Shown piece by piece: positions 31,724-38,777 of a stretch of DNA of 64,000 nucleotides (its first letter is position 1; each line of letters begins with the position of its first letter). The notes beneath the pieces were generated by a model. The model searched no databases. It worked only from the letters and a program-made list of their open reading frames with translations, and was not told the origin of the DNA. This DNA comes from Acidobacteriota bacterium (GTDB lineage: Bacteria; Acidobacteriota; Terriglobia; Terriglobales; Acidobacteriaceae). The position numbers and the translations under genes are program-made. The stretch spans positions 1,762 through 65,761 of the forward strand of contig QIBA01000030.1 in assembly GCA_003225175.1 (NCBI GenBank), in the 5' to 3' direction.

Positions 31724-33130
31724 ATGCGGACTTTTTTGCGCGCCGTCGCAGTGTTCTCGCTAGTACTGCCAGTGACTTTCGTGGCGTTGGCAGCTCCGCC
31801 CGACGCAGCTTCCAACAGCTTTTCGGTCCCGGTCGTGTACTACAAATTGACGAACGGTCTACGCATTGTGCTTTCGCCAGATCACTCTGCTCCGACTGTC
31901 GCCGTTGCGGTTTACTACCGCATCGGCTTTCGGGTTGAGCCGAAAGATCGCACCGGATTCGCTCATCTGTTCGAGCACATGATGTTCCAGGGCTCACAGA
32001 ACCTCGGCAAGATGGAGATGATCAAGCTGGTGCAGCAGAACGGCGGAACGCTGAATGGGTCCACCCGCTTCGACTTCACCAATTACTTCGAGATCGTGCC
32101 CGCCAACAAGCTAGAGACGATGCTCTGGGCGGAAGCGGATCGCATGCGCGGACTCGCCGTCAATGAAGACAATCTCAAGAACCAGCAGGGCGTAGTCGGG
32201 AATGAGGTGAAGGTCAACGTGCTTAACCGCCCTTATGGCGGATTCCCGTGGCTCGACATGCCGCAGTATGCCAACACCAATTGGTATAACGCGCACAACT
32301 TCTATGGTGACTTGAGGGATATCGAAGCCGCCACGCTTCCCGATGTCCAGCAGTTCTTCAAGACCTATTACGCTCCGAACAACGCAGCCTTGGCGATTGT
32401 GGGCGATTTCGATACTGCTGAGGCGCGCAAGCTGATCGAGAAGTACTTCGCTGGGATTGCCTCTGTTGCTCAGCCAAAAGAGCCTGATCTCACTGAGCCT
32501 CGTCAAGAACAAGAAAAGCGGGCCTCGAAACCGGATACTCAGGCAAAGCGTCCTGCATTAGCTGTGGCGTATCACATGCCTGCTCGCAATACTCCCGAGT
32601 ACTATGCGATGGGGTTGATCGATCAGATTTTGCTGGAGGGAGACGACAGCCGTCTTTATGAGGAGCTGGTGCAGACGCGCGGCATCACGGGCGGACTAGA
32701 AGGTGGAATCAACCTTATCGGGAACATGTACAACTACAATGGCCCCATGCTGTGGATCATGGACCTTTACCATGACAACAATGTGAAAGACGAAGACATT
32801 CTGGCTGCCATCGATTCCGTGATCGAGCCGCTGCGCACGAAGCCAGTGGATCAAAAGACGCTCGATCGCGCACTGGTAAAGATACGCTCAGATTTTTACG
32901 ATCAGGTCAGCCAGTTCAATGGATTCGGGCGCGCCGACATGCTCGCCAGCTTCGCCCTGTTCGATGACAATCCGCAACGGATCAACGACATCGAATCCCA
33001 ATTCCGGAAGGTCACTCCAACGCTGATCCAGAAAACTGCGCAGGAGTATCTGCGGCCTACGAACCGCACGATCCTGACTATCGAACCGAAGGCCGGCGAG
33101 AACACGCAGGCGGCCAAGTCGGGAAATTGA
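31724..33130 (+). CDS. M16 family zinc protease (catalytic subunit)
   Basis: A 468-residue protein with a signal peptide (MRTFLRAVAVFSLVLPVTFVALA). The inverted zinc motif HxxEH is intact in FAHLFEHMMFQGS, with the third ligand Glu in VVGNEVKVNVL. A C-terminal M16 domain follows (AYHMPARNTPEYYAMGLIDQIL). The gene for a second M16 protein without the motif follows after 25 bases; such pairs form heterodimers that degrade peptides in the periplasm. Confidence 0.93.
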   Translation: MRTFLRAVAVFSLVLPVTFVALAAPPDAASNSFSVPVVYYKLTNGLRIVLSPDHSAPTVAVAVYYRIGFRVEPKDRTGFAHLFEHMMFQGSQNLGKMEMIKLVQQNGGTLNGSTRFDFTNYFEIVPANKLETMLWAEADRMRGLAVNEDNLKNQQGVVGNEVKVNVLNRPYGGFPWLDMPQYANTNWYNAHNFYGDLRDIEAATLPDVQQFFKTYYAPNNAALAIVGDFDTAEARKLIEKYFAGIASVAQPKEPDLTEPRQEQEKRASKPDTQAKRPALAVAYHMPARNTPEYYAMGLIDQILLEGDDSRLYEELVQTRGITGGLEGGINLIGNMYNYNGPMLWIMDLYHDNNVKDEDILAAIDSVIEPLRTKPVDQKTLDRALVKIRSDFYDQVSQFNGFGRADMLASFALFDDNPQRINDIESQFRKVTPTLIQKTAQEYLRPTNRTILTIEPKAGENTQAAKSGN

Positions 33131-33155: not shown

Positions 33156-34583
33156 ATGAAAAATCGATTGATTGCCATCGCATGCATGATGTTCCTGGCT
33201 CTCGGATGGAGCCTTCCTTCGGCTGCACAGGATGCCGCCGGTACCGCGCAAGCGGCGCGAGTAAAGAAGCAAAGCCCGCCGCCGGGAAGTGTGCCGAAGC
33301 CGTTCCTCGTTCCGCAGACAGAGAAACTCACTCTGCCCAATGGACTTCAGGCGACGCTGGTTCCCTACGGCGCGGTTCCCAAGGTGCAGATCACGCTGAG
33401 CTTAAGGGTCGGCAACTTGAACGAAGCTGAGAACCAGATTTGGCTCGCCGATCTGCTGGCAAGCCTTGTGAAGGAAGGGACGACCTCGCGCTCCGCGCAG
33501 CAGGTGGCACAAGAGGCTGCGTCGATGGGAGGCTCGGTGGATGTGAATGTCGGCGCCGACCTGACCCATATCGCAGCCGACGTGCTCTCCGAATACGGGC
33601 CCAAAATGGTAGGACTCTTGGCCGATGTGGCCATGCATCCGCTGCTGCCGGCGTCAGAGATCGACCGTCTGAAGAAAGACCAGCTGAGAAATCTGACGAT
33701 CCAGAAATCTCAGCCCCAACCAATAGCACTCGAGCAGTTTCGGAGAGCGCTGTATCCAAATCATCCGTATGGCCGTGTGTTTCCGACGGAGCAGATGATC
33801 CAGAGATACACGATCGAGGATGTTCAGAAATTCTACAAAGACAACTTCGGCGCGGCGCGGACGCATATTTACGTTGCAGGAAAATTTGACGCTCCCGCGA
33901 TCAAGAAGGCCATCACCGAAGCTTTTTCCTCGTGGCAGCATGGTCCGGATCCGTTCATCGATATTCCTAAACCGATAACCAAACACGAGCTGGAGTTGGT
34001 CGATCGCCCAGGTGCGGTGCAGTCCACGCTTTATATTGGATTGCCAACCATTGATCCCAGTAATCCAGACTACATCCCGCTTCAGGTGATGAATTCACTT
34101 CTGGGAGGCTCACTTGGATCGCGCATAACCTCCAACATTCGCGAGCAGAAGGGATACACCTACTCACCAAACAGCCAGCTCTCCGCGCGCTATCGCGACG
34201 CTTATTGGCTGCAGGTTGCGGATGTAACCGAGCAGCACACTGGCGATTCGATTAAGGAGATCCTGTATGAGATCGACCGCCTGCAGAAAGAAGCTCCTGG
34301 AGACGCTGAGCTCACAGGAATTAAGAACTATCTCGCGGGCGTCTTCGTGTTGCGGAATTCAAGCAGGGCGGGACTCATCGTCCAACTTGAATTCGTGGAT
34401 CTGCATAAGCTCGGCGACGATTACGTGAATACTTACGTACAGACGGTATACGCTGTGACTCCGCAACAAGTCCAGCAGGCTGCGCAGAAATACATCAATG
34501 CGGAGAAGCTAACGATGGTGGTTGTTGGAGACAAGCAGAAAGTGTCCGAGCAGGTGGCTGCTTATCAGAGCAGTGGGATGTAG
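33156..34583 (+). CDS. M16 family protein (non-catalytic partner)
   Basis: A 475-residue exported protein (signal MKNRLIAIACMMFLALGWSLPSAAQ, ribosome binding site AAGGAG). The M16 fold is clear (LPNGLQATLVPYGAVPKVQ and LLGGSLGSRITSNIREQKGYTY). Where the catalytic HxxEH should be it reads WLADLLASLVKEG, so it cannot bind zinc there. The R/Y pair of the C-terminal domain (NIREQKGYTYSP) is kept, fitting the substrate-holding subunit of a heterodimer with the upstream gene. Confidence 0.92.
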   Translation: MKNRLIAIACMMFLALGWSLPSAAQDAAGTAQAARVKKQSPPPGSVPKPFLVPQTEKLTLPNGLQATLVPYGAVPKVQITLSLRVGNLNEAENQIWLADLLASLVKEGTTSRSAQQVAQEAASMGGSVDVNVGADLTHIAADVLSEYGPKMVGLLADVAMHPLLPASEIDRLKKDQLRNLTIQKSQPQPIALEQFRRALYPNHPYGRVFPTEQMIQRYTIEDVQKFYKDNFGAARTHIYVAGKFDAPAIKKAITEAFSSWQHGPDPFIDIPKPITKHELELVDRPGAVQSTLYIGLPTIDPSNPDYIPLQVMNSLLGGSLGSRITSNIREQKGYTYSPNSQLSARYRDAYWLQVADVTEQHTGDSIKEILYEIDRLQKEAPGDAELTGIKNYLAGVFVLRNSSRAGLIVQLEFVDLHKLGDDYVNTYVQTVYAVTPQQVQQAAQKYINAEKLTMVVVGDKQKVSEQVAAYQSSGM

Positions 34584-34668
34584 AGCTTCGCGCTGCTCCA
34601 TTAGCACTGTAATAGTGAGTACTCTTTCGGCGGAAGATCTCCCGCGGTTCATCGCACTAATTTCCTGG

Positions 34669-34697
34669 CTCTTTCACCAAGAACTTGGGCCAAAGAG
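34669..34697. terminator. Hairpin between convergent genes
   Basis: CTCTTT-CA-CCAAG-AA-CTTGG-GCC-AAAGAG forms an interrupted 11-base-pair stem in the gap between the M16 gene and the oppositely oriented secreted protein. Location suggests a shared terminator. No T tract. Confidence 0.4.
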
Positions 34698-34777
34698 TTG
34701 AGGCACAGCGTTAGAGTCCGAGATTTCGGGGGAGATCCTTCGCAGGGGCTCAGGATGAGATTAAGATTGCGACACCA

Positions 34778-35794
34778 TCACAATCTTCCTAATTCCCCAA
34801 TCCTCTTCTCCACCACCTCCGAGTAGCTCATCACGTCTTTATCGGAATATCCCGCCGCACGGAATGCGTCCTGAATCTGTTCCGGCTTGAGCTGCGCAAG
34901 TAAACTAGCGATCCACTTAGCATCCTGAATGGGAATGTTGCGCCCGATCCACCGCAGTTTCATGCGGGTTACAAAATTGGGAATGGAGAAAATGCCGAGC
35001 AGGCCGATCACAGTCGAGTGCGCCGGCGAAGTGAAGTCGATCGTATCTTTATGAACATGCGAGATGAACTTCGACTTCCTGTATAGATCGAGGGAGCCTT
35101 TGCCACGTCCGGGCCCTAAACGGTATCCAATGCTGCCAAAAGACGCGCCCAAATCGGTAACGATGTAAATGTCCCTGCCGGTGCGCTCGTCTTTATAAAT
35201 CGCGTTGTTCTCGTCCTTGGGGTCCCAGTTATTGAAGAGTGACATCATCACGCGCAGTCCATTGAACTCGCGCGTGCCGCTGAAAGGGTTCCTTTCCCAG
35301 CTCCAGGGATCTTCCTTCTCGCGGTGCTTGGGATGACGCTTCATGCGCGCGTCCTTCACCAGCCCTCCGGGCTCTATAAAATTCTGACCGCGCTGCAGAT
35401 GCGGAGGAAGATTCTTGACCTGGAGTTCCGGAAGAAGGTAGTCGTTCTCGGTAAAGTAGCCAACTGCCCATAACAAGCGAGTCGCAGCCGTTTCCGGGCG
35501 AGCTTCCACTCCCAACTTTACCTTCCATTTCTCGCCGTCTTGATCCCGAGCATCAAATTTGGGATTTGAGCCTTTCCTATCTTCCTTCTCGAAGACAACG
35601 GGAGGACGTGGCCGGCCTTTCTCCCCGCCGGAGCCATATCGCAGATTACGGGAACTGATGTCCCCAGGGTCCTTCCAAATGAGTGGGGGTTGGCCCTGAC
35701 TGGATTCCCGTGGCTTGGTTTGCGCAGGACCGCTGGTGGACGAAATAACCAGCAGGCAGAGGAATATCGAACCGCTAATGGGTACCCTGCGCAT
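34778..35794 (-). CDS. Secreted protein with atypical kinase-like motifs
   Basis: A 338-residue protein with a signal peptide (MRRVPISGSIFLCLLVISSTSGPAQ). Reading along it, an ATP-lysine-like GEKWKVKLG (K91/K93) is followed by a helix with E102 (ETAATRLLWAVGYF), a catalytic-loop-like NNWDPKDENN with D191 and N196 five residues apart, and a metal-binding-like VTDLGASFG (D214). This order and spacing resemble the protein-kinase-like superfamily (PI3/4-kinase, HipA or Fam20 branches), but no overall family match is certain. Export would make it an extracytoplasmic kinase. The gene is alone on the minus strand. Annotated databases may list the family only as hypothetical. Confidence 0.6.
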   Translation of the reverse strand: MRRVPISGSIFLCLLVISSTSGPAQTKPRESSQGQPPLIWKDPGDISSRNLRYGSGGEKGRPRPPVVFEKEDRKGSNPKFDARDQDGEKWKVKLGVEARPETAATRLLWAVGYFTENDYLLPELQVKNLPPHLQRGQNFIEPGGLVKDARMKRHPKHREKEDPWSWERNPFSGTREFNGLRVMMSLFNNWDPKDENNAIYKDERTGRDIYIVTDLGASFGSIGYRLGPGRGKGSLDLYRKSKFISHVHKDTIDFTSPAHSTVIGLLGIFSIPNFVTRMKLRWIGRNIPIQDAKWIASLLAQLKPEQIQDAFRAAGYSDKDVMSYSEVVEKRIGELGRL

Positions 35795-36109
35795 GGCTGC
35801 TTAACTGCCGACTCTTTAGATAGGCAGAGCACTTGATTAGGCTGCTTAGAACGTGATTTGGGCGCCGTCCGCACCTCAGTAAACGCAACAGCGGCGATTG
35901 TTAGAGAAACCCCGCCTCGCCCGGGTTTTTGCTTCTCAGGTTAGCGACTCCAGGAATTGAGATTTCCGGCCTGAGCACTCGCCGCACCTAGGAAATCGCA
36001 ACACGCATCAACTCAGCCGGGCTGCGGGTCCAAGTTTTCGGACTGCGCCGGTAGTTCTTTTCCGCATCCAAGCTTGCAGGAACTCGGACCGTGAGGGGGC
36101 GCGAGCCGC
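35795..36109. other. Intergenic region between divergent genes with terminator-like hairpin
   Basis: These 315 bases have no supportable gene. AAACCC (35907-35912) and GGGTTT (35923-35928) form a stem followed by T5, an intrinsic-terminator shape on the plus strand, although both flanking genes point away from it. This leaves room for a short plus-strand RNA starting in 35800-35900 or a leader attenuator for the gene at 36110. Confidence 0.4.
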
Positions 36110-37219
36110 TTGAAATTGCTAGTCCAGCCGGGTGACGGCGTTAGGCCGCTCGTTAAGGCCATCGAAAAAGCCAAAAAAAGCATTCAGGTTGTCATCTTCC
36201 GATTCGACCGCCTGGAGATCGAGAAAGCGCTCGAGGATGCTGTTAAGCGAGGTGTATCGGTAGACGCCCTCATCGCGTTTACCAACCGAGGTGGAGAGAA
36301 AAACCTCCGCAAGCTGGAAATGCGCTTCCTGGAATGCGGTGTGACCGTCGCGCGCACCGCGGATGACCTCGTCCGCTACCACGGCAAGATGATGATCATC
36401 GATGGCAAGGAGCTACATCTGCTCGCGTTCAATTTCACCCAGATCGATACCGAACGCAGCCGCAGCTTTGCATTCATCACGCACGACAAGGAGCTCATCA
36501 AGGAAGCTGAAGATTTGTTCGACTGTGACTGCAAGCGGCGTCCCTATAAACCGAGTTCGTCCCGCTTCCTGGTCAGTCCACTGAATGCTCGCGAAGAGCT
36601 CGCCAATTTCATCGAAGGAGCCAAAAAGGAACTTCTGATTTACGACGTGAAAATAAGCGATCGCGAGATGATCAAGCTGCTGGAGGAGCGTGCCCGTGAC
36701 GGGGTGGAGGTCCGCGTAATCGGGAAGATGGCCCGCCATAGCAGCCAGATGTCAGTCAGACAACTTAAAGACCTTCGCCTGCACACACGAATTATTGTTC
36801 GAGATCGCAAAGAGGCCTTCATCGGAAGCCAAAGCCTGCGCGAGCTGGAGCTCGATTCACGTCGCGAGATCGGCGCGATGTTTCGCGATGCGGAGGCCAT
36901 CGCTAAGATCATTGACGTCTTCGAAGCTGATTGGAAATCCGGCGTAGTAGCAACGGGAGATGAAGCCGACGATGTCGTGAAGCCCCCTGCGGCCAAGGTG
37001 GCAAAGAAAGTGGCCAAAGCTGTGACGAAGATACTTCCGCCGGTAGCCCCGGTTGTAGAAGAAGTCGTGAAGGACGTTCTGAAAGCAGGTAACGGTATTC
37101 CCATCGATCACGAAGATATTGAAGAAACCGTCAAAGATGCCGTGAAGCAGGCTGTGAAACAAGTCGTGCGCGAGACCGTCGAGGATGTAGTCGAACAACA
37201 ACGCGAACCGGAAGCATAA
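36110..37219 (+). CDS. Phospholipase D-like protein with amphipathic C-terminal tail
   Basis: A 369-residue cytoplasmic protein (no signal peptide) of the PLD/cardiolipin synthase-like superfamily. The first half carries a full HKD motif, YHGKMMIID (H, K, D present). The second carries a variant, HTRIIVRD followed by GSQSLRELELDSRREIG, with Arg in place of Lys. Residues about 285-365 form a Lys/Val/Glu-rich series of amphipathic helices (KVAKKVAKAVTKI; VEEVVKDVL; VKDAVKQAVKQVV) that could lie on membranes or form a coiled coil. The start is TTG with GAGGGGG 11 bases upstream. It overlaps the next gene by one base (TAATG). It might act on phospholipid or nucleic acid. Confidence 0.8.
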   Translation: MKLLVQPGDGVRPLVKAIEKAKKSIQVVIFRFDRLEIEKALEDAVKRGVSVDALIAFTNRGGEKNLRKLEMRFLECGVTVARTADDLVRYHGKMMIIDGKELHLLAFNFTQIDTERSRSFAFITHDKELIKEAEDLFDCDCKRRPYKPSSSRFLVSPLNAREELANFIEGAKKELLIYDVKISDREMIKLLEERARDGVEVRVIGKMARHSSQMSVRQLKDLRLHTRIIVRDRKEAFIGSQSLRELELDSRREIGAMFRDAEAIAKIIDVFEADWKSGVVATGDEADDVVKPPAAKVAKKVAKAVTKILPPVAPVVEEVVKDVLKAGNGIPIDHEDIEETVKDAVKQAVKQVVRETVEDVVEQQREPEA

Positions 37220-37818
37220 TGCTGAAATCAATCAAACTGACAGTCCTTCGAAATGGGATTCTGGTCTCGATGCTGATGTTGCTGAGCACAGCTTCGCTAG
37301 GCGCGCAACAGAAGTCAGGACCGCCGGTAAACGCCAATGCCGCGATTGCTGCGAAGTTCGAGCAGAACGTTGCAAACTATATGAGGGTTCGGCAGAAGGC
37401 GATGGCGGGCTTATCGGTCCCAAAGAACACAGATTCGCCTGCAAAGATTGCGGAGTTCCAGAAGCAACTTGCGGCGAACATTCGAGCGCTTCGCGCAAAT
37501 GCCATAAAGGGAGAGCTCTTCACGCCTGAGGTCGTGGGACTATTCCGGAATCTGGTTGCAATAGCAATGCGCGGACGCGACGGAGCCCTAATTCGCACAA
37601 GCTTCGAACACGCCGAGCCGATCCAGGGGGTGCGCTTCGACGTAAATGCGGCCTATCCCGACGGCTTGCCATTACAGTCTATGCCGCCATCTCTGCTGCT
37701 GAATCTGCCTCAATTATCGAAAGAGCTGGAATATCGATTTGTGGGCCGCGAACTGATTCTGCGCGATGCTCCGGCAAATCTGATCGTGGACGTAATTCCT
37801 GATCTAAGCATCCCTTAA
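37219..37818 (+). CDS. Secreted protein of unknown function
   Basis: A 199-residue protein with an N-terminal export signal (MLKSIKLTVLRNGILVSMLMLLSTASLGAQQ), starting on the last base of the PLD-like gene. The N-terminal mature half is helical (KFEQNVANYMRVRQKAM and ALRANAIKGELFTPEVVGLFR). The C-terminal half is beta-like and ends DLSIP. No known motif. Coupled translation with the PLD-like gene and the phosphatase gene downstream (5-base gap) indicates a joint role. Confidence 0.8.
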   Translation: MLKSIKLTVLRNGILVSMLMLLSTASLGAQQKSGPPVNANAAIAAKFEQNVANYMRVRQKAMAGLSVPKNTDSPAKIAEFQKQLAANIRALRANAIKGELFTPEVVGLFRNLVAIAMRGRDGALIRTSFEHAEPIQGVRFDVNAAYPDGLPLQSMPPSLLLNLPQLSKELEYRFVGRELILRDAPANLIVDVIPDLSIP

Positions 37819-37823
37819 ACGAA

Positions 37824-38777
37824 ATGACCCGCCGGATCCTCTCAATTGCAGCTCTCGTCATTCTTGGATGCGGCGTTATCTCCCTTCACCCGCGCTCTGA
37901 GCTTGCCGCCATCTTCGCGTCTCATGAAACTGCGCCTGCCAGTGGAGTGGCGGTCGATGTGAAGCTGCCTCTGGAGCAGAAATCTGTCCGCTTTGCTGTG
38001 ATTGGCGACAACGGAACTGGCGACAAACCGCAATATGAAGTGGCTGCGGAGATGGAGGCTTACCGCAAAGTTGTCGGTTATGATTTCGTGACCATGATGG
38101 GCGACAACATCTATGGAAGTCACAAGCCCAAGGATATCGAGCGCAAATTCGAGACTCCCTACAAGCCTCTGCTTGATGCCGGAGTGAAGTTTTACGCTTG
38201 CCTGGGCAATCACGACGACTCGAACGAAACCTTGTACAAAAATTTCAACATGAACAGCCAGCACTACTACTCGTTCAAGAAAGGCGACGTCCAGTTTTTC
38301 GTTCTCGACAGCAACTATATGGACTCGAAGCAGCTTGATTGGATCAACAATCAGATCAGCGGTTCAACGGCGAAGTGGAAGATCGCCTACTTTCACCATC
38401 CGCTATATTCCGATGGACGTTTTCACGGCCCCGATCTAGACCTGCGCAAACAACTCATGCCGATCTTCGAGAAGTACGGCGTGAACGTAGTGATGTCTGG
38501 TCATGATCACGTCTATGAGCGCTTCAAGCCCGAAGAAGGAATCTACTTCTTTCTCGTGGGGAACTCAGGCGAGCTCCGCTACCACAACCTGCGCCAGGGT
38601 TCCAACATCATGGCAGTGGGCTTCGATACCGACCAAACATTCATGCTCGTCGAAATCAGTGGCGATAAACTGTATTTCCAAACGATCTCCCGAACCGGAC
38701 AGACGGTTGATTCCGGCGTGCTGCTACATCAACCGAAACCACAGACTCCACTTCAGGCCCAGCAGCAGGTTCACTAG
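37824..38777 (+). CDS. Exported calcineurin-like metallophosphoesterase
   Basis: A 317-residue exported phosphatase of the purple acid phosphatase-like group. Metal-binding motifs are complete: AVIGDNGTGD (D), MMGDNIYG (GDN), CLGNHDD (GNHD), YFHHPLYSDG (H) and GHDHVYER (GHxH). An N-terminal hydrophobic segment directs export. It follows the PLD-like and secreted genes in one operon, so it may remove phosphate from a lipid or nucleotide headgroup released by the upstream enzyme; this is inference. Confidence 0.9.
   Translation: MTRRILSIAALVILGCGVISLHPRSELAAIFASHETAPASGVAVDVKLPLEQKSVRFAVIGDNGTGDKPQYEVAAEMEAYRKVVGYDFVTMMGDNIYGSHKPKDIERKFETPYKPLLDAGVKFYACLGNHDDSNETLYKNFNMNSQHYYSFKKGDVQFFVLDSNYMDSKQLDWINNQISGSTAKWKIAYFHHPLYSDGRFHGPDLDLRKQLMPIFEKYGVNVVMSGHDHVYERFKPEEGIYFFLVGNSGELRYHNLRQGSNIMAVGFDTDQTFMLVEISGDKLYFQTISRTGQTVDSGVLLHQPKPQTPLQAQQQVH

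Follow-up and report, generated by a model that had tools for sequence, protein, structure and literature searches.

The 64,000-nucleotide stretch of DNA analyzed here, from a soil-dwelling member of the Acidobacteriota (contig QIBA01000030.1; "the window") carries on its reverse strand, at positions 34778 to 35794, a gene that we call KIN and that encodes a candidate secreted HipA-like kinase of 338 amino acids, an assignment that draws on the open reading frame (ORF), its homologues, residue conservation, and profile comparison. Catalytic residues are conserved across the family, its profile is similar to that of HipA kinases, most of its members start with N-terminal export segments, and a gene cluster recurs around them. 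From these observations we infer a fold, a catalytic activity, a nucleotide source, a substrate, and roles for the partner genes, and we hold with moderate confidence that KIN and its partners form an extracytoplasmic kinase/phosphatase system that acts on an exported or envelope substrate. What appears to be new is a HipA-like kinase family that is exported and has a recurrent cluster of phospho-genes; among the matches listed, the open-access literature (with subscription papers and preprints outside this scope) showed nothing on a secreted HipA-like kinase family or on this gene set.

A conserved set of kinase-like residues

The KIN ORF begins with the ATG at position 35794, and its N terminus, MRRVPISGSIFLCLLVISSTSGPAQ, reads as a signal peptide (residues 1 to 25, positions 35720 to 35794, reverse strand), with cleavage after GPAQ by our own reading. 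The original prediction, made from the nucleotide sequence, was of a secreted protein with the motifs of the protein-kinase-like superfamily, and inspection of the codons places the ORF and each motif where they had been predicted: WKVKLG at residues 90 to 95, NNWDPKDENN with D191 and N196 five residues apart, and VTDLGASFG with D214. The candidate functional sites, all on the reverse strand and compared with protein kinase A (PKA), are the nucleotide-loop glycine in GSNPK (residues 75 to 79, positions 35558 to 35572), which aligns with the G-x-x-x-K start of HipA_C; the ATP lysine K93 (K72 in PKA; 35516 to 35518); the helix-C glutamate E101 (E91 in PKA; 35492 to 35494); the catalytic loop D191-P-K-D-E-N196 (D166 and N171 in PKA; 35207 to 35224); and the metal-binding motif D214-L-G216 (D184-F-G in PKA; 35147 to 35155). 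In PKA numbering, G52, K72, E91, D166, N171, and D184 are named among the catalytic key residues of the protein-kinase-like superfamily (PMC1821047), and KIN has candidate counterparts for these six of the ten key residues given in that paper: G75, K93, E101, D191, N196, and D214.

L001, a 73%-identical relative, differs from KIN at 74 first, 56 second, and 190 third codon positions over 313 codons, and the excess at third positions indicates selection at the protein level and a real gene. KIN matches no family in Pfam (the best match, to DUF6544 with an E of 0.11, lies under the cut-off for that family) or in NCBIfam, and a single-sequence search of PDB sequences returned nothing notable (best E, 0.79). 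A promoter and terminator scan of positions 34500 to 36300 yielded no signal above chance.

Homologues were searched in depth within the Acidobacteriota. With the protein as query (E up to 1e-5), KIN relatives occur in 37 of 297 genomes, with one copy in the window's own genome; a 30-row profile (E up to 1e-3) matches at least 91 of 396 genomes, at least 48 of them with a best E below 1e-20, these counts being lower bounds because at most six candidates were scored per genome. Among the matches listed, KIN is present in 6 of the 26 genomes of the window's family (240 genomes without a match stand outside this set), and a scan of genome contigs found a single close relative, L001. Relatives of KIN were absent from phages and from viral contigs (four scans), and neither KIN nor three of its relatives had a relative on plasmids, where the only match noted was a 26%-identical relative of the phospholipase-D-like neighbor described below, on an Acidisarcina plasmid.

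For comparison we assembled 80 homologues, which are the de-duplicated matches with a domain of at least 180 amino acids from the searched loci and 40 hand-chosen stretches and not a random sample. They fall into a window-like group (g1, n = 46), a distant group (g2, n = 18), and a group of open frames of 540 to 755 amino acids (g3, n = 16) that, being defined by frame length, takes in L114, a g2-like kinase fused to PAP2. A comparison by hhalign shows g1 to be homologous to g3 (99.9%, E of 1e-33; without L114, 99.8%, E of 8e-30). The g3 proteins (L099 to L113) are uncharacterized, share the same kinase core, and occur in many genomes of the phylum; their motif is roughly KSxGxTPGF..D..G....VKF..., followed by NHxDxKxxNT and DFGS.LG, and one of them matches Pfam HipA_2 with an E of 9e-4.

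In a 31-row alignment, which leaves out three matches (the window's own copy, the L007 fragment, and the fused L016), K93, E97, E101, D191, D214, and G216 are present in all 31 rows and N196 in 28. Across the 80 superfamily members, D191, D214, and G216 are invariant, K93 is retained in 79 and E101 in 77, and N196 is retained in 69, with glutamine in the other 11. Every member of g1 and g2 has E97, but not every member of g3 does; E101 differs in 3 of the 16 g3 members; and G75, the candidate counterpart of PKA G52, is found in 41 of the 46 members of g1. The residues singled out by the original prediction as kinase-like are thus conserved rather than lost in homologues, in the smaller alignment as in the larger set, except that of the two lysines it named only K93 is conserved, K91 being variable in the 31-row alignment.

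Residue conservation is a stronger test than a search for the motifs themselves. Across 41 mapped stretches, with that of the window among them, a loose regular expression for the motif set matched none of the 597 ORFs that were at least 200 amino acids long and not labeled kinase; it matched 73 of 20,000 shuffles of KIN, and the set exceeds what chance would give. It recovered 17 of 38 KIN family members and is too loose to serve as a classifier; by our own reading of this recovery, the spacing between motifs appears to vary within the family.

Relationship to HipA-type kinases

Profile-profile comparison supports the assignment of a HipA-type kinase fold to KIN. The comparison profiles for CotH, HipA_C, and HipA_2 were built from proteins of the same phylum; for HipA_2, 29 loci were considered and three, in which two frames fitted, were dropped (n = 26). 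The superfamily (n = 80) matched the pooled HipA_C and HipA_2 set at 94.8% (E of 5e-8), with a score of 65.2 against 16.5 for the reversed template and 14.9 for the best of 20 shuffles, and still matched at 93.6% (E of 2e-7) without L114. The best profile link was that of g3 with HipA_2 (PF20613), at 95.9% (E of 6e-9) with L114 and 94.7% (E of 6e-8) without it; HipA_2 and HipA_C match each other at 96.6%, and the superfamily matched HipA_C alone at 57% (61% without L114). In the aligned pairs with both HipA families, the lysine, the glutamate, and the N-x-D..N loop are in register, joined with HipA_2 by the D-x-G; with HipA_C (PF07804), the family of the HipA toxin kinases, the G-x-x-x-K start and the W-(I/K)-V/L-K segment also align. 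The KIN superfamily thus shares kinase-core homology with HipA_C and HipA_2. Scores of g1 alone against HipA_C and against CotH are weak but exceed those of decoys, with none of 60 shuffles reaching either. At the level of single sequences (E up to 0.5), 4 of 67 members match Pfam HipA_2 (best E, 4e-4) and 2 match HipA_C (best E, 0.072), and KIN itself matches neither Pfam model at an E of up to 10.

KIN differs from HipA_2 in its longer inter-motif stretches, its C-terminal part, and its N-terminal hydrophobic segment. Unlike HipA_C, it falls under the Pfam cut-off, is predicted to be exported, and lacks a toxin-antitoxin context among the commonest neighboring families: a HipB-type antitoxin was not among the 25 commonest of 134 Pfam families in 114 neighbor proteins from 19 stretches (L189, in which an antisense ORF hid the kinase, was left out of this tally and retained in the 20-stretch counts given below). 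The main text of Gerdes et al. (PMC8262856) is without the words "secreted," "signal peptide," and "periplasm," and HipA kinases are not described there as secreted.

The original prediction had anticipated a fold like that of PI4K, HipA, or Fam20, and on the sequence evidence HipA is the choice among the three: it was borne out by the profile comparisons, and neither Fam20C (PF06702) nor PI3/PI4 kinase (PF00454) appeared among the Pfam matches of KIN at an E of up to 10, in a search confined to Pfam in which HMMER filters drop most matches above an E of about 0.1. Matches to PF00454 in the phylum are fragmentary and mostly under the cut-off. KIN is best read as working like, and descending with, HipA-type kinases while lying outside HipA_C and HipA_2 as Pfam defines them.

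A 67-row profile searched against 177,635 PDB sequences found actin-fragmin kinase (1cja), a eukaryotic cytosolic enzyme, as its top match, with an E of 0.033 that is not significant alone and is followed by a non-kinase at 0.093; the alignment covers the N-lobe only, with the lysine and the glutamate in register.

CotH (PF08757), an atypical bacterial kinase (PMC7821199), was considered as the nearest family because of the NWD...NN and DxxxxFG motifs of KIN and was rejected. Its likeness to KIN is local, covering only some 44 columns at the catalytic loop in which the NWD....N and D-x-x-x-x-FG segments are alike, and it fades with distant relatives: g1 scores 28.8 to 33.1 where no decoy exceeds 22.7, the superfamily as a whole 20.6 where a decoy reaches 19.2 (26.8 without L114), and g3 13 to 14, within the range of decoys. 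KIN does not match the CotH model of Pfam at an E of up to 10.

Export segments and fusion proteins

As scored by a crude hydrophobicity rule, not SignalP, a hydrophobic 13-mer precedes the domain in 40 of 46 members of g1, 16 of 18 of g2, and 9 of 16 of g3, versus 1 of 26 HipA_2 proteins. This pattern supports an exported location for KIN, in line with its original description as a secreted protein. In addition, two relatives are single-frame fusions that fit a location in the envelope. In one (L206; G199:C19), the kinase is joined to an Omp85 barrel (29.3 bits against a cut-off of 24, and 30.7 bits for the C-terminal part alone); in the other (L114; G293:C24), it is joined to a PAP2 phosphatase (69 bits against a cut-off of 27.2).

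A recurrent cluster of partner genes

Three genes on the forward strand adjoin KIN. PLD (36110 to 37219), divergent from KIN, encodes a phospholipase-D-like protein (PLDc_2 by Pfam and alignment) in which no signal peptide was seen and whose single HKD motif (H96, K98, and D103 in the aligned frame) is conserved in at least 92% of 24 rows. HYP (37219 to 37818), known from its sequence and relatives, encodes a small protein, exported as judged by eye and with no Pfam match, that is fused to the N terminus of the next gene product in four loci (L213, L215, L216, and L217). MPE (37824 to 38777) encodes a calcineurin-like metallophosphoesterase, identified by Pfam and alignment and likewise exported by eye; its metal-ligand motifs are conserved in at least 90% of 22 rows, most of which have an export-like start by the same visual criterion.

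Of 20 stretches around KIN relatives, chosen for contig size and diversity, 10 had a close relative of PLD, 10 had one of a particular MsbA-type ATP-binding cassette (ABC) exporter, and 5 had a relative of MPE. The exporter proteins first compared, from eight loci, are 48 to 97% identical to each other and have the ABC_membrane plus ABC_tran architecture. The most complete arrangement, ABC-KIN-PLD-HYP-MPE with all five genes on one strand, occurs at L225, and L189 has the same gene order with a gap between ABC and KIN. The mapped stretches were mostly chosen for a PLD, MPE, or kinase match and so display the form of the cluster, not its frequency.

The association extends to whole genomes. Among the 297 genomes, 37 have KIN (E up to 1e-5) and 28 have PLD (E up to 1e-50), and 27 have both, as against 3.5 expected (P = 6e-29, hypergeometric test); MPE (E up to 1e-40) is present in 30 genomes, 23 of them shared with KIN, as against 3.7 expected (P = 7e-19). 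Within 6 kb of a KIN gene lie 21 of 31 PLD copies and 19 of 50 MPE copies, on a list of KIN genes that includes distant g1 and g2 copies but not g3 and with contig ends that may hide further links. In a quick tree of 37 kinases, the window's copy groups with eight relatives from its own family, six of which have ABC and PLD (the Shimodaira-Hasegawa-like approximate likelihood ratio test [SH-aLRT] value, 86, is not starred). Loci linked to PLD or MPE are found on either side of the deepest split of the tree, many of them having been selected for that link. The make-up of the cluster is itself clustered on the tree yet labile, with 17 changes against a shuffled mean of 22.3 and none of 200 shuffles as low.

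Proposed function and alternatives

We propose that KIN is exported, adopts a two-lobed protein-kinase-like fold of HipA type, and most likely acts as an enzyme that moves phosphate from a nucleotide onto an extracytoplasmic substrate, either a protein or an envelope lipid or glycan. K93 and E101 would hold the nucleotide, D191 would serve as the catalytic base, and N196 and D214 would bind metal. MPE, together with its partner HYP, would strip off that phosphate again and form a writer/eraser pair with KIN. The MsbA-type ABC exporter, which belongs to the same cluster in relatives, would take the substrate, or a carrier of it, through the membrane, and PLD, which looks cytosolic, would act inside on the same phospho-compound or its precursor. 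A more specific version, which we offer tentatively and regard as doubtful, is a dedicated bacterial system for envelope phosphorylation in which the ABC exporter delivers, the exported HipA-like kinase phosphorylates, the metallophosphatase reverses the reaction, and PLD handles the compound inside, the whole being an analogue of the Fam20 secretory kinases from the HipA branch; as part of this joint reading, the kinase of the same system would be tethered to Omp85 in one lineage and fused to PAP2 in another.

Several observations pull against an extracytoplasmic kinase/phosphatase system. Since PLD has no signal peptide, the partners are not all in one compartment, and ATP is scarce outside the cytoplasm. 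The window genome's own ABC orthologue, which shares 63% identity with the L201 protein, lies on a different contig, and the 8-kb stretch around the nearest relative, L001, has no PLD, HYP, MPE, or ABC. Of the 73 listed KIN copies, 23 have a PLD and 19 an MPE within 6 kb; at the thresholds given above, 10 of the 37 KIN genomes are without a PLD gene and 14 are without an MPE gene. Because many genomes hold several copies, some KIN copies are evidently unlinked paralogues. Cluster make-up changes frequently along the tree, and the co-occurrence P values are not corrected for common descent. Of these facts, the two that sit least easily with the proposal are that PLD looks cytosolic and that so many kinase copies are unlinked. 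As to the kinase assignment, g1 alone is weakly tied to HipA, at 7 to 15% with HipA_C, 31% with the pooled set, and 1.1% with HipA_2 alone (score of 22.2 against 21.7 for the best shuffle), and by these comparisons the significant link to HipA depends on the distant members. In the scans scored in bits, no kinase model is matched above its curated Pfam cut-off (L099 reaches 19 against 27 for HipA_2). The g1 and g3 profiles, run separately, find no kinase among the PDB sequences, so the match to 1cja is a pointer only. The sole structure model, built from two sequences (the window's and that of L001), had a mean predicted local distance difference test (pLDDT) value of 32 and was discarded, so that the fold is inferred from profiles and residues. 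Finally, the window has 129 stop-to-stop ORFs of 120 amino acids or more, and besides KIN the loose motif expression matches one of them.

The uncertain structure model, the weak scores of g1 alone, and this second motif match are what would be expected if KIN were an exported protein of some other, unrelated fold whose D-x-K-x-x-N and DLG motifs had arisen by chance. However, it is exactly the catalytic positions that are near-invariant in the 80 members, and the in-register HipA match lies far above shuffled and reversed decoys, making chance the least probable of the explanations weighed here. If instead the similarity to HipA is taken at face value, KIN could be an ordinary cytoplasmic kinase of the HipA toxin type, like the studied HipA kinases of toxin-antitoxin modules (PMC8262856), with its hydrophobic N terminus the product of a misjudged start. 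The frequency of export segments in g1 and g2, the fusion to an Omp85 barrel, the lack of a HipB-type family among the commonest neighbor families, and the recurrence of PLD, MPE, and ABC in its place make this very unlikely. The nature of the neighbors suggests a third possibility: PLD, the calcineurin-type MPE, and, in places, PTP/phytase-like or PAP2-like genes all encode phosphoester enzymes, and the cluster could be a phosphorus-scavenging island in which MPE and PLD serve phosphate uptake from phospholipid or nucleic acid while KIN is an accessory or regulator, not a writer. That PLD has no signal peptide and that the ABC protein has the architecture of an exporter rather than an uptake system argue otherwise, and we consider such an island quite unlikely.

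A kinase fold need not imply phosphate transfer: folds of this kind with other chemistries are known, SelO being an AMPylase (PMC12663964). KIN may therefore carry out AMP transfer or amino-acid ligation, or it may be a nucleotide-binding sensor, and the glutamine that replaces N196 in 11 of 80 members and the variation of E101 within g3 are in keeping with such roles. Yet K93, D191, D214, and the DxG keep their identity and order in nearly all members, and phosphate transfer is the better fit to a recurrent phosphatase partner, which leaves other nucleotide chemistry on the unlikely side. We retain an extracytoplasmic kinase/phosphatase system as the best explanation for KIN and its partners.

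By description only, such a system is reminiscent of two kinase-like protein families of Legionella, Lcin_0519 and Lani_1194, for which a role in decorating molecules that are secreted or belong to the envelope has been proposed; some of the neighborhoods of Lcin_0519 include an ABC exporter (Wzm/Wzt) (PMC9758233). In contrast to KIN, these proteins are described in the same paper as having methyltransferase domains and no identifiable helix-C glutamate. The string "Acidobacter" is absent from its main text and from that of PMC8262856.

This family would add an exported branch to the HipA kinases. In our view, little of the phosphorylation that takes place beyond the cytoplasm of bacteria has been charted, and its nucleotide source is an open question; HipA kinases themselves are known mainly as intracellular toxins. 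A concrete candidate for an exported kinase, with six catalytic residues, a phosphatase partner, and an exporter, makes reversible envelope phosphorylation in bacteria directly testable.

Additional features of the window and of related loci

The C-terminal third of the window's PLD (36110 to 37219) is an Ala/Val/Lys-rich tail that lies past two PLD domains, and the frames of several relatives are only about 300 amino acids long. Downstream of KIN and on the opposite strand, the window contains two adjacent M16 (insulinase-type) peptidase genes with export-like N termini (31724 to 33130 and 33156 to 34583, forward strand). At an E of up to 1e-30, none of the 40 other mapped stretches has a relative of the first of them, which is therefore probably unrelated to the kinase cluster.

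In two loci, L196 (8930 to 9520, reverse strand) and L200 (5060 to 5656, forward strand), a dual-specificity or protein tyrosine phosphatase (PTP) gene with phytase-like matches lies beside the kinase gene; neither locus yielded a close relative of PLD or MPE, and the phosphatase is perhaps an alternative eraser. At L203 (7468 to 9297, forward strand), a gene divergent from the kinase gene encodes a large protein that looks exported, matches PAP2 weakly (21.4 bits against a cut-off of 27.2), and resembles a vanadium haloperoxidase. Lastly, a span of about 7 kb at one locus (L218; G285:C35) contains a g1 kinase, a g2 kinase, two MPE genes, HYP, and PLD, an arrangement that may reflect duplication of the whole system.
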